This document shows, piece after piece, positions 42,698-47,280 of a stretch of 64,000 bases of DNA. The notes beneath the pieces are model-generated. The model saw only the letters and a program-made list of their open reading frames with translations. It ran no database searches and had not been told where the DNA came from. The stretch's first letter is position 1. The number at the start of each line of letters is the position of its first letter. The stretch comes from Chromatiales bacterium (lineage in GTDB: Bacteria > Pseudomonadota > Gammaproteobacteria > Steroidobacterales > Woeseiaceae): assembly GCA_024679535.1 (NCBI GenBank), contig JAIBDF010000003.1, positions 27,690 to 91,689 on the forward strand, given 5' to 3'. Made by a program: the position numbers and the translations under genes.

Positions 42698-44125
42698 CTA
42701 CTGCTCGTACAGCCAGCGGAGTAATGCTTCCTGGACTTCCTCGCCCGGACCGCGATGGATATCTTCGAAATTGTGCAGCACAACCACACTGAAACGCCGA
42801 CCGGACCTGGCCTGCAGATAGCCCGCGATTGCGGTAACGTGGTCAAGCGAACCGGTCTTCAGATGGGCTTTGCCAACAAGCTCGCCACCCCTGAAGCGAC
42901 GGGACAGTGTGCCGTCAAGACCTGTTAAAGACATCGATGCAAGATATTCGGGCATGTAGGGCTGCTGCCAGGCGAAGCGTAATAATGACGACATATCGAC
43001 TGCAGTTATGCGGGATTCCCGCGACAGCCCGGCGCCATTTGCCACAGCAAGCTCGGCAGGTTCGAGTCCATTATCGCTGAGCCATTTGCCAATCACTTTT
43101 CGCCCGCCCATCTCGGTACCCGGCGGGCCGAGAACCTCGGCTGCCAGCGTGTAAAGCACCTGGCGCGCCATGACGTTATTGCTGTGCTTGTTGACGCTCG
43201 CGATCATCTCGGTGAGCGACGGCGACTCAAACGTAAAAACGGGTTCCATGTCTTCTGGCGCAACAGCCTTGCGCCACCCGCCGTCGAACGCTCCTCCCGA
43301 GTCCCGCCATAATGACGAGAACAGCCCGTAGGCAAATTCATTATGGGACAACACGGTCCGATCCATCGCGTAGCGCTTGCAGCCTTTCGGAAACCGTCCT
43401 GAAAAGGTCACATGGTCGTTGTCGCCATTGTTTGTAACCGTTATCCCGCGCTGGTATCCACCGCAGTAACCCGGTACGAGCTGCAGGCGATTGTCCACGC
43501 CCAGATTGCCGAGTTGCGGGTCGAGTCGGACCGCCACCGACTGACCGTCCGGCTCAAACCAGTAGCGCACTACTTTAAAGTTCATGAGTAATGCATTCGG
43601 CGCAACGTTGTACGCACGCAGCGGTTGTTTGTCGAATGCGGCGGGATCGTACTCGCCAATATCGAAATAGCTGTCATCAAGCAGCAGATCGCCCGCGATG
43701 TTGTCGATGCCTGAGTGACGAATTCCGCGCAGCATTTGCCAGACGCGCTCGGTTACAAGAAACGGATCGCCGTACCCCTTCAACAGCAGGTCGCCGTCCA
43801 GTATCCCATCCTCGATCACCCCGAGCGCATAAATGTCGGTCTTCCATCGGTAGGCAGGACCCAGAACATCGAGCGCGACCAGGGTGGTTAGCAGTTTCAT
43901 GGTCGACGCTGGATTACGCGGTTCCTCGGGCAGCCATGTCAGGACAACTTCACCGGTGTCGACATCTTCGATGTGAACGCTCAACGATTCCTGCGGCACC
44001 TGACGTACCTGGAGCGCGCTGCGAACACCAGCCGGCAGCGCTTCCTCCGCCGCCTGCGTTGCGCCGTGGCACACGAGCAAGGCCATCAGCAGGCTGGCAA
44101 ACAGGTAACGCAAACAGTCAGGCAT
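42698..44125 (-). CDS. dacB: D-alanyl-D-alanine carboxypeptidase/endopeptidase (PBP4 type)
   Basis: PASTMKLLTTLVALDVLG (SxxK); VANGAGLSRESRIT (SxN-like region); HLKTGSLDHVTAIAGYLQ (KTG). Confidence 0.9.
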   Translation of the reverse strand: MPDCLRYLFASLLMALLVCHGATQAAEEALPAGVRSALQVRQVPQESLSVHIEDVDTGEVVLTWLPEEPRNPASTMKLLTTLVALDVLGPAYRWKTDIYALGVIEDGILDGDLLLKGYGDPFLVTERVWQMLRGIRHSGIDNIAGDLLLDDSYFDIGEYDPAAFDKQPLRAYNVAPNALLMNFKVVRYWFEPDGQSVAVRLDPQLGNLGVDNRLQLVPGYCGGYQRGITVTNNGDNDHVTFSGRFPKGCKRYAMDRTVLSHNEFAYGLFSSLWRDSGGAFDGGWRKAVAPEDMEPVFTFESPSLTEMIASVNKHSNNVMARQVLYTLAAEVLGPPGTEMGGRKVIGKWLSDNGLEPAELAVANGAGLSRESRITAVDMSSLLRFAWQQPYMPEYLASMSLTGLDGTLSRRFRGGELVGKAHLKTGSLDHVTAIAGYLQARSGRRFSVVVLHNFEDIHRGPGEEVQEALLRWLYEQ

Positions 44126-44828
44126 GGTCAGAGTCCATTTTGGGCAGATGACGTTCAAGCGCGCGGCTCGCGGCGCGATGCATGACCCATGTCAGCACAA
44201 CGATGGCTATGAGGCCAGCGCCACCAAGCCAGTAACCGAGTGTTGTCGGGGTTGCCTCACCGGCTAATATTTGTCCGATATCCCGTGCCAGCGTTCCGAG
44301 ATAGACGTACAAGGCAACCGGCATGAGCATACCGACAGCCGTGGCCAGCATGTGCACCCGAGCACGCACCGGGGTAATGCCATACATGTAGTTGAGCAGA
44401 TTAAACGGGATAACGAGCGACAGGCGCGTCAACACAACAATAAGAAAGGCTTCCTCCCGCAGTCCTGCCTCGATGGCCAGGAGGCGTGGGTTGCCCGCCA
44501 CTTTTGCGGCAACCCAGTCGCGCGCTACAAGGCGACCTGCGAGGAAGGCACATTGCGCGCCCAACGTTATTGCAAGCGCGGACACCAGCGTGCCGGTGCC
44601 CAGCCCGAACAGGTAACCCGCGATCATCATGGAGCCTGAACCAGGGACGAAAAGCACCGTCGCCAGCACGACGCACACTATGTAAACGATCGCCCCGGCC
44701 ACCGGGTTGGCCTGCGCCCAGTTGACCATTGCCAGCACCGGTTCGGCGATTGGCGTCACATACACGGCGTATACGAGGGCAAAAAATATGGCCACCATCA
44801 CAAGGCGATTAAATATTCGTCGAGTCAT
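44118..44828 (-). CDS. TVP38/TMEM64 (VTT domain) membrane protein
   Basis: FVPGSGSMMIAGYLFGLGTGTLVSALAITLGAQCAFLAGRLVARDWV. Confidence 0.85.
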   Translation of the reverse strand: MTRRIFNRLVMVAIFFALVYAVYVTPIAEPVLAMVNWAQANPVAGAIVYIVCVVLATVLFVPGSGSMMIAGYLFGLGTGTLVSALAITLGAQCAFLAGRLVARDWVAAKVAGNPRLLAIEAGLREEAFLIVVLTRLSLVIPFNLLNYMYGITPVRARVHMLATAVGMLMPVALYVYLGTLARDIGQILAGEATPTTLGYWLGGAGLIAIVVLTWVMHRAASRALERHLPKMDSDHA

Positions 44829-46624
44829 CGCGCGGGCCTCTTGATCCTGAACGTGCGAATGCGATCCGCAAGTGTGGTTGGGCGCACCCCGAGCAATTCT
44901 GCTGCGCCACCCTTGCCTGACACCTTCCAGTCGGCCTGTTCCAGCGCCATTATCAGGTTGGTCTTTTGAAATTCTCGCATTTCCTTCTCGGTCATTGGCT
45001 CTTCGCCACGTGGCGCGACTGCGGTTGCGGGTTCCTCGGCGGATTCGAGCTCCGGCATGGACAGGTCGAGGCGCAACGAAGTCCCAGGGGAAAGAATAAC
45101 GGCACGTTCGATCACGTTCTTGAGCTCGCGTACATTGCCGGGCCAGCTGTATGACTTCATATTGGCAACCTGGGAGCGCGTGAGAGTCAACGCTTCCCGG
45201 CCAAAGTCCTTGCAGGTCTGCTCCAGAAAATGTTGCGCGAGCTGAACGATGTCGTCGCCACGCTCGCGCAGCGGCGGTACGTCAACCGGGAATACGCTAA
45301 GTCGATAAAAAAGATCTTCGCGGAACGCGCCGGCTACGATCAGACGTTCAAGGTCGCGATTGGTCGCCGCGATTACACGAACATCGACGGACTTCGTGAT
45401 GTCGTCGCCCACCCTCTCGAACTCACTCTCCTGCAGGACTCGCAGCAACTTGCTCTGCAACTCCATAGGAATTTCGCCAATCTCGTCGAGAAAGATCGTG
45501 CCACCATCGGCGAGCTGAAACCGTCCAATTCGATCCCGGTGAGCGCCAGTGAAGGCGCCTTTTACGTGACCGAAAAACTCACTTTCGAATAGCTCTTTGG
45601 GAATGGACGCGCAGTTCACTTTGACAAGCGGCCCGTCAGAACGCGGGCTGCGCGCGTGAATTTCCCTGGCGATGAGCTCTTTGCCGACGCCCGATTCGCC
45701 CTGAACGAGTACGCTGGCCGGCGTCTCTGCAACGGCTTCGATACGCTTCAACATCCGTCGCAACGCCTGACTGGTTCCAACAATACGGCCGAAATTCAGG
45801 GCGACGCTGACTTCCTCGCGCAGGTAGTCGCGTTCATTCTCCAGTTCCTCGCGCAGACGGGCGTTCTCCGCCAGAGTGCGTCGCAGCTCTCGTTCGGCGC
45901 GATTTCTCTCAGTAACATCTTTTGAGGCCACGAGCATTCTGTCGACGTTGCCGTTTTCGTCGCGATGCGAGATGGCCGACATAATGAGATCGATTGGTTG
46001 ACCATCCCTGGCAACCATCTGGCGCTCAAGATTATTGAAATCACCCTCGGCGATCAGTTCGCGCAATCCACCATCGGCGTATTTCTTCTGGTCAGCTACA
46101 CTCATGAAATCGGTAATCGGGCGGCCCAGCACTTCGTCGCGCGTGAACCCCAGCTTATTGAGCCAATGGTCCGTGACCGTGATGATCAGTCCGTCCCCGT
46201 CAACGGTGTGCAGCATAGCTGGCGTCGATCGATACAGCGTGCGGTACTTGAAGTTGGCGCGGGCCTGGTCGGACAGTTCCGAGTACATGGCGACCGTACG
46301 CAAATACTTACCCTCAGCGTCGTACTCGACAAATGCGTTCGTTACGCACTCGACAATCTCGCCTGAAAACGTGAGGAACGACACAGGTTTGTTCTCAAGT
46401 TTGCCGCGCCTGCGCAACGCCGGGCGCAATTCGTGCAGGATACAGTGGGCCGTATCTTCGGTCGCAAACTCCTCCGGGCGGTGTCCGACCATGTCCTCCA
46501 GTTCATAGCCAAGGCGCTCCAGCATCGCGTCGTTAACGTCAAGATAGGCACCATCTTCGGCTATCGACGTCGTCATGACCGGCGCTTTGCGAAACAACCA
46601 CTCGTAATCATCCATGGAAACCAT
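44825..46624 (-). CDS. Sigma-54-dependent transcriptional activator with N-terminal PAS domains
   Basis: AAA+ domain with GESGVGKELIAREIH, ESEFFGHVKGAFTGAHRDRIGRF (GAFTGA loop), VRVIAATNRDLE; C-terminal Fis-type HTH (AAELLGVRPTTLADRIRTF). Confidence 0.95.
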   Translation of the reverse strand: MVSMDDYEWLFRKAPVMTTSIAEDGAYLDVNDAMLERLGYELEDMVGHRPEEFATEDTAHCILHELRPALRRRGKLENKPVSFLTFSGEIVECVTNAFVEYDAEGKYLRTVAMYSELSDQARANFKYRTLYRSTPAMLHTVDGDGLIITVTDHWLNKLGFTRDEVLGRPITDFMSVADQKKYADGGLRELIAEGDFNNLERQMVARDGQPIDLIMSAISHRDENGNVDRMLVASKDVTERNRAERELRRTLAENARLREELENERDYLREEVSVALNFGRIVGTSQALRRMLKRIEAVAETPASVLVQGESGVGKELIAREIHARSPRSDGPLVKVNCASIPKELFESEFFGHVKGAFTGAHRDRIGRFQLADGGTIFLDEIGEIPMELQSKLLRVLQESEFERVGDDITKSVDVRVIAATNRDLERLIVAGAFREDLFYRLSVFPVDVPPLRERGDDIVQLAQHFLEQTCKDFGREALTLTRSQVANMKSYSWPGNVRELKNVIERAVILSPGTSLRLDLSMPELESAEEPATAVAPRGEEPMTEKEMREFQKTNLIMALEQADWKVSGKGGAAELLGVRPTTLADRIRTFRIKRPAR

Positions 46625-46635
46625 CGGCGCATCAT

Positions 46636-46690
46636 ATACGAAATTCCGTAAATCTGCTTACGATTTTTCGTTATTTACGAAATTCCGTAA
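46636..46690. promoter_or_regulatory. Cluster of palindromic sites (consensus TTACGAAATTCCGTAA), candidate upstream activator sequences
   Basis: ATACGAAATTCCGTAA (46636-46651), degenerate TTACGATTTTTCGTTA (46658-46673), TTACGAAATTCCGTAA (46675-46690). Confidence 0.75.
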
Positions 46691-46735: not shown

Positions 46736-46753
46736 TTGGCACGAGATATGCAT
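46736..46753 (+). promoter_or_regulatory. Sigma-54 (-24/-12) promoter
   Basis: TTGGCACGAGATATGCAT: GG (46738-46739) and GC (46750-46751) separated by exactly 10 nt. Confidence 0.85.
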
Positions 46754-46818
46754 TGAGGACGTATAGAACATTTTACCTCTGAATTTCATATATCACCGAA
46801 TTTTTAAAGGACATACTG

Positions 46819-47103
46819 ATGAAAGCCAGGAACATTGAAAACAATCTCGCGCTGGTCGGCGCGCTGATCGTTTTGGTTGGCGTTTCGTTTGCAGCCGAGG
46901 ACGCCCTTGGCGTTGAATTCGCCGATGTAACCAGCACGGCCATCGCCATTCACGACGTAGCAAACAGCACGACAAGCGGGGCGGCGCAAGCCAATGCGGA
47001 CTCCGCAGCGCTGGCCGCAAAATCATTGGCACGCGCAAACTGGATCGACCTTGATATCAAACTCAACGACCACAGGTCTACGCTGATTGCGGACGAGAAG
47101 TAA
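46819..47103 (+). CDS. Small (94 aa) hypothetical exported/membrane-anchored protein
   Basis: RBS-like AAAGGA at 46806-46811; N-terminal hydrophobic segment NNLALVGALIVLVGVSFAAEDALG; downstream of sigma-54 promoter. Confidence 0.75.
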   Translation: MKARNIENNLALVGALIVLVGVSFAAEDALGVEFADVTSTAIAIHDVANSTTSGAAQANADSAALAAKSLARANWIDLDIKLNDHRSTLIADEK

Positions 47104-47121
47104 GGTCTGACAAGAACCCCC

Positions 47122-47225
47122 CTTCGGTAGCGACCCGACCAGGTATCTCTCTCCCCCGAAGACCTGGTTGCGCTGCCGGAAATCGAGCCGGAAGGATTTC
47201 GGCTTTTGCGGACCTGGAAGGTCCG
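47122..47225 (+). ncRNA. Candidate structured RNA element / structured 3' UTR (several stems, possible H-type pseudoknot)
   Basis: CTTCGG(47122-47127)/CCGAAG(47156-47161); ACCAGGT(47138-47144)/ACCTGGT(47162-47168); GCCGGAAATC(47175-47184)/GATTTCGGC(47195-47203); CGGACCT(47209-47215)/AGGTCCG(47219-47225). Confidence 0.45.
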
Positions 47226-47252
47226 GCGGCATTCCCCCAAGCCGCTAACTAT

Positions 47253-47280
47253 GGGCGCCGGTTCGCCGGCGCCCTTTTTT
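47253..47280 (+). terminator. Strong intrinsic terminator with UUCG tetraloop
   Basis: GGGCGCCGG TTCG CCGGCGCCC TTTTTT. Confidence 0.93.

Follow-up and report, generated by a model that had tools for sequence, protein, structure and literature searches.

The window, meaning the whole stretch of 64,000 nt that was analysed, carries a locus in which a divergent gene for a sigma-54 activator, three palindromes, a -24/-12 promoter, a small ORF and a structured RNA ending in an intrinsic terminator lie side by side (Table 1). The original prediction, made for the promoter and the small ORF, had read the sequence exactly. Ten nucleotides separate the GG and the GC of the -24/-12 element, the ribosome-binding site AAAGGA is at 46806-46811, the start codon ATG is at 46819 and the stop codon of the 94-codon ORF ends at 47103. 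The divergent PAS activator that it had announced together with palindromes is likewise recovered, as a PAS-AAA-HTH protein with a GAFTGA motif. Transcription would start near 46763. Downstream follows a convergent gene whose end reaches into the terminator. Thus, the RNA is the end of a transcript rather than a leader, and a riboswitch or leader function was rejected on this ground. Since one promoter and one terminator frame them, the ORF and the RNA are probably carried by a single transcript. On the other side of the locus, a gene for a VTT-domain membrane protein (44118-44828, minus strand) overlaps the stop codon of the activator gene (ATGA). It is missing from the syntenic place in one related locus (L122), which rules it out as a core part of the module and makes it an optional neighbour.

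Table 1. Features of the locus, in coordinates of the window
Feature	Coordinates	Strand	Remarks
Sigma-54 activator, divergent, 599 aa: two PAS domains, AAA+ domain with GAFTGA, Fis-type HTH	44825..46624	-	
Palindrome 1, ATACGAAATTCCGTAA, presumed activator site	46636..46651	.	
Palindrome 2, TTACGATTTTTCGTTA, presumed activator site	46658..46673	.	spacing 22 nt from site 1, 17 nt to site 3
Palindrome 3, TTACGAAATTCCGTAA, presumed activator site	46675..46690	.	start 61 nt before the -24 element
Sigma-54 -24/-12 promoter, TTGGCACGAGATATGCAT	46736..46753	+	GG 46738-46739, GC 46750-46751, 10 nt between
94-codon ORF, small exported or membrane-anchored protein (predicted)	46819..47103	+	purifying selection
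Structured RNA core	47108..47246	+	match to covariance model R1, 84 bits
Hairpin H1, loop containing CUCUCUCCCCC	47139..47167	+	CCCC in 47/47 loops
Hairpin H2, GGA loop	47187..47203	+	GGA in 34/46 loops
Hairpin H3, GGA loop	47210..47224	+	GGA in 28/45 loops
Hairpin H4, loop AUUCCCCCAA	47226..47245	+	CCCC in 44/47 loops
Intrinsic terminator, GGGCGCCGG-UUCG-CCGGCGCCC, then U run	47253..47280	+	

The promoter had been described as a textbook one. By its score alone, it stays within what chance would give in 64 kb: about 1.1 sites that differ from TGGCACGNNNNTTGCW in no more than one position are expected in such a window, and TTGGCACGAGATATGCAT has one mismatch. What places the element above chance is its conservation, since it is found at 80 of 80 related loci, a number that includes the window and counts one genome twice. 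The form TTGGCA[C/T]-N6-xGCA was retrieved at 79 of these loci by an automatic search for a promoter together with an ORF that has a hydrophobic N-terminus; the 80th locus (L077) has the variant CTGGCACGGTCTGTGCA. The loci had been collected by similarity of the small protein, of the RNA or of the activator, and the promoter was not used as a criterion. RpoN was searched in five genomes and is present in each, and the predicted transcription unit would depend on sigma-54.

The palindromes are also above chance in the window, with 5 matches against 0.19 expected and 0 of 100 shuffles. Of 79 loci, 77 have three of them, mostly spaced 22 and 17 nt, and at 74 of the 79 the distance from the start of the last one to the -24 element is 61 or 60 nt. 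They would be bound by the adjacent PAS-type activator. In the own genome, a draft of 3.49 Mb in 237 contigs, they are confined to this locus, apart from one weak site on a different contig. This weak copy (G000:C67:11903-11918, locus L033) has one mismatch and might mark a second target of the activator. Of 14 further genomes, 13 have an ortholog of the activator's PAS region: 10 of 11 Woeseiaceae of other genera, and three genomes from another family of the order; the single genome without it measures 1.8 Mb. Palindromes, promoter and ORF were read directly beside these orthologs. The idea of a self-contained module is thus supported: the module is conserved as a unit, with sites, promoter and ORF beside the activator in 13 of 14 genomes.

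The small ORF is coding and under purifying selection. Compared with its closest homologs, it has a dN/dS of 0.22, and the values in seven homolog pairs range from 0.07 to 0.41, so that the coding conservation in relatives on which the original prediction depended is indeed observed. The 94-residue protein has no convincing match in Pfam or NCBIfam, and no relative in the PDB. These searches and the homologs agree with the predicted exported or membrane-anchored small protein without known family. In most homologs, a signal peptide or one hydrophobic segment is combined with a middle rich in Ala and, at the C-terminus, a motif resembling LDLDIxLIGxTS, which is found again in most other Woeseiaceae genera. 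Across the loci, the ORF has between 30 and 108 codons, the tail being often lost and the RNA kept. In part of the genus, the protein is down to 30-52 residues and the C-terminal motif is mostly gone; several species in which the ORF is eroded to 30-35 codons still carry the 3′ RNA. A small envelope protein had been proposed as the main output of the locus. This view is not borne out, because the same predicted transcript contains a covarying RNA that is kept where the ORF has only 30-35 codons; the protein as sole output is weakened by the same truncated ORFs.

The RNA, absent from the original prediction, extends between the stop codon of the ORF and the terminator. It comprises five helices, and the window sequence has a folding z-score of -3.9. 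A covariance model, R1, was built from 13 sequences and has 138 positions and 27 pairs. In an alignment of 47 sequences (A3) that is fitted to the model and therefore leans towards structure, 96.1% of the cells are paired and 17 of the 27 pairs show double changes. Cells with double changes amount to 119, against 30.4 in shuffles, and slid controls are only 19-47% paired. An unfitted MAFFT alignment gives 8 pairs with compensatory changes. In contrast with the stems, which change by compensation, the C-runs in the loops of H1 and H4 are retained, which points to loop-mediated contacts. These C-rich loops look built for pairing with other mRNAs. Judging from the sequences compared, the RNA is the most persistent output of the module. 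As for the terminator, many relatives (L041:4728-4800, L342, L346, L348 and others) have a hairpin with an extra conserved arm resembling GACCGCUCCGUGUCGGAUCGGCCCGCUG, and the window and its nearest relatives have the short terminator only, without an extra GACCGCUCCGUGUCGGAUCGGCCCGCUG-like arm.

With fast filters, R1 finds the RNA in 67 of 73 genomes of the same genus and in three genomes of other Woeseiaceae genera. Without filters, all ten loci of other Woeseiaceae genera are matched at the right place with E < 0.05, as is a further locus, L341, whose genome is assigned to a different family. In that genome (G242, contig C115, L220/L341), the module is no less similar than one from a genus member, with 74% activator identity, and contamination or transfer may be envisaged. 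The unfiltered search gives no match at two loci (L352 and L353) from that other family of the order (f9). There, the activator, the palindromes, the promoter and the small ORF are all in place and C-rich stretches are seen downstream, the RNA having diverged beyond R1. The RNA occurs once per genome; the sole genome with two matches has both of them near contig ends. A search with a conserved piece of the RNA returned loci named Woeseiaceae or unassigned metagenome bins of Proteobacteria or Gammaproteobacteria, and single matches in Achromobacter and Streptomyces that were read as chance. Judging from these names and from the genomes sampled with R1, the window would itself come from a member of the Woeseiaceae. 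A class-wide search with R1 under strict filters, over 369 genomes of 270 genera, found the RNA in its own genus only. No Rfam family reaches its gathering score, and E-value searches gave weak matches or none; the best weak match, ar15, was discarded as the family of this RNA, with 21.1 bits for a gathering score of 40. Finally, full-text literature searched for Woeseiaceae with sigma-54 and for Woeseia with small RNA, in a collection that leaves out most subscription journals, holds no description of the module. The RNA and the module are thus likely, if not proven, to be new.

As partners for C-rich loops, ribosome-binding sites with G-runs may be envisaged. In five genomes, GGGGAGA-N-ATG sites are about 3 to 5 times more numerous than reversed-pattern controls, and genes of TonB-dependent receptors are conspicuous among those that follow such sites. 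With starts picked by the best Shine-Dalgarno energy in all gene sets, GGGGA precedes 41 of 88 receptor starts in Woeseiaceae, against 11 of 418 syntenic genes, a background that is pseudo-replicated because the loci are syntenic, and against 1 of 58 genes of the window, which form a cleaner background. In the same gene sets, GGAGG and AGGAG are not significantly enriched before receptor starts. Four genomes of other genera without a fast R1 match have GGGGA at 13 of 30 receptor starts; these genomes were later found to carry the module, and hence provide no negative control. Among receptors on 15 plasmids of unrelated bacteria, GGGGA occurs in 5 of 15 (p = 0.41). Since G-run ribosome-binding sites also exist in unrelated bacteria, the link with receptors is not evidence for this RNA in particular, and the targeting of TonB-dependent receptors was demoted as specific evidence. 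The ribosome-binding site of these receptors is very often GGGGA or GGGGGA, in Woeseiaceae (L221-L310) as on plasmids of unrelated Proteobacteria (L354-L368), and other genes of the window differ. Such G-runs look like a trait common to TonB-dependent receptors. Their Shine-Dalgarno sites are plausible targets of the RNA, and would be potential targets for any C-rich RNA. Generic hairpins with C-rich loops number 1.9 per locus against 0.85 in shuffles, a weak signal that was not relied on.

Considering the conserved C-rich loops and the precedents of sX13 and GlnZ (see below), we propose, with a probability of roughly 0.6, that the transcript is bifunctional. In this model, the PAS-type activator would bind the three tandem palindromes and drive a dedicated transcript of about 520 nt from the -24/-12 promoter. 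This transcript would give two products, the small exported or membrane-anchored protein and the structured 3′ RNA ending in the intrinsic terminator. The RNA would display two rigid hairpins with C-rich loops, with CUCUCCCCC and CCCCC as cores, and these loops would pair in trans, as antisense seeds, with G-runs located at ribosome-binding sites. The RNA may be active as part of the full mRNA or once cleavage has released it. The anatomy of the module, its conservation, the coding nature of the ORF, the covarying RNA structure and the retained C-rich loops are read from the sequences; the dependence on sigma-54, the contact between activator and palindromes, the signal, the action in trans and its targets are inferred, with sX13 as a precedent for C-rich loops that act on G-rich start regions. 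A wider version may tentatively be imagined, although we would not favour it at this stage. The module would then represent a new family of bifunctional sigma-54 transcripts, in which a dedicated PAS sensor-activator is joined with a small exported protein and an RNA with C-rich loops. On one signal, the RNA would switch off the translation of a class of G-run mRNAs, for instance those of TonB-dependent receptors, and the protein would serve the same process at the envelope.

Other explanations have to be considered. The small exported protein might be the only functional output, the 3′ structure being then a stabilising UTR with a terminator, directed against 3′ exonucleases. The purifying selection on the ORF and the presence of the LDLDIxLIGxTS-like motif in most other Woeseiaceae genera would fit with this. 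However, a protective structure would need no conserved loop, yet CCCC is present in 47 of 47 H1 loops and 44 of 47 H4 loops, and the RNA stays in the several species where the ORF erodes to 30-35 codons. We therefore regard this explanation as rather unlikely. The GGA loops of H2 and H3 raise the idea of a decoy that would sequester CsrA/RsmA, all the more as GGA is found in 34 of 46 and 28 of 45 of these loops, respectively, and csrA in four of five genomes searched, the own genome among them. Known CsrA/RsmA decoy RNAs, however, have more than two GGA loops, and here there are two at most. Moreover, several sequences have no GGA in either loop, whereas the C-runs are nearly universal, and Rfam gives no match to CsrB, RsmY or RsmZ. 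A decoy function thus appears improbable. Finally, the C-rich loops might work in cis or bind a protein, for instance in a feedback on their own transcript or on the activator mRNA. The module has its own activator and, judging from the palindromes, a single target unit, as in an autoregulatory circuit. Nevertheless, the short 5′ leader of the ORF and its ribosome-binding site (AAAGGA) offer no G-run for the loops to pair with, and we hold such a mechanism to be very unlikely.

The preferred reading remains that of a bifunctional transcript with an RNA acting in trans. What is new here is an RNA family absent from Rfam, found in the Woeseiaceae, a lineage represented in this study mostly by metagenome bins. 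With one activator and one promoter, this RNA comes with a ready genetic handle. If it acts on G-run ribosome-binding sites, a single sensor would be tied to large repertoires of outer-membrane receptors. The small ORF is also seen to erode at loci that keep the RNA of the same predicted transcript, which illustrates how a dual-function RNA could lose its coding function.

The module may be compared with several known systems. Among these, Qrr and CrcZ are sigma-54-dependent sRNAs, and glnA, the parent gene of GlnZ, belongs to the context of nitrogen limitation, linked to sigma-54. GlmY and GlmZ are sigma-54-dependent sRNAs listed with GlrR (PMC4987338). As with GlmY/GlmZ, Qrr and CrcZ, the RNA of the module lies behind a -24/-12 promoter with upstream activator sites, here predicted; those RNAs are, however, non-coding and served by activators of the two-component type, whereas a PAS-type activator here stands beside a coding transcript. 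In its AAA+ and HTH layout, this activator resembles FhlA and NorR, and the FhlA site CATTTCGTACGAAATG (PMC4987338) shares the word ATTTCGTA with the palindromes. The sensor, in contrast, consists of two PAS domains, the centre of the palindrome differs (TTACGAAATTTCGTAA type) and the protein scores below the NCBIfam cut-offs for NorR, FhlA and NifA. GlnZ is an Hfq-dependent sRNA released by RNase E from the 3′UTR of the mRNA of an enzyme, glnA (PMC9731577). The proposed regulatory RNA is similarly located at the 3′ end of an mRNA, but the upstream ORF encodes a small exported protein and not an enzyme. VcdRP (PMC8672173) and SR1/SR1P (PMC8501984) are dual-function RNAs that combine a small ORF and a regulatory RNA on one transcript, as predicted here. 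They differ from the present case in that the protein here is predicted to be exported, the length of the ORF varies widely between species and the pairing is proposed from sequence. The RNA itself is closest in its features to sX13 of the gammaproteobacterium Xanthomonas, a highly structured, Hfq-independent RNA of 115 nt whose hairpin loops are C-rich and show complementarity to G-rich motifs close to start codons (PMC3771888). Both have rigid hairpins with C-runs in their loops, a likeness of features. sX13 is a stand-alone sRNA at a different locus, whereas the RNA of the module would form the 3′ end of a transcript that also encodes a protein, with a sigma-54 promoter and its own activator. 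The module would thus work like the known sigma-54 sRNAs and the C-rich-loop sRNAs combined.
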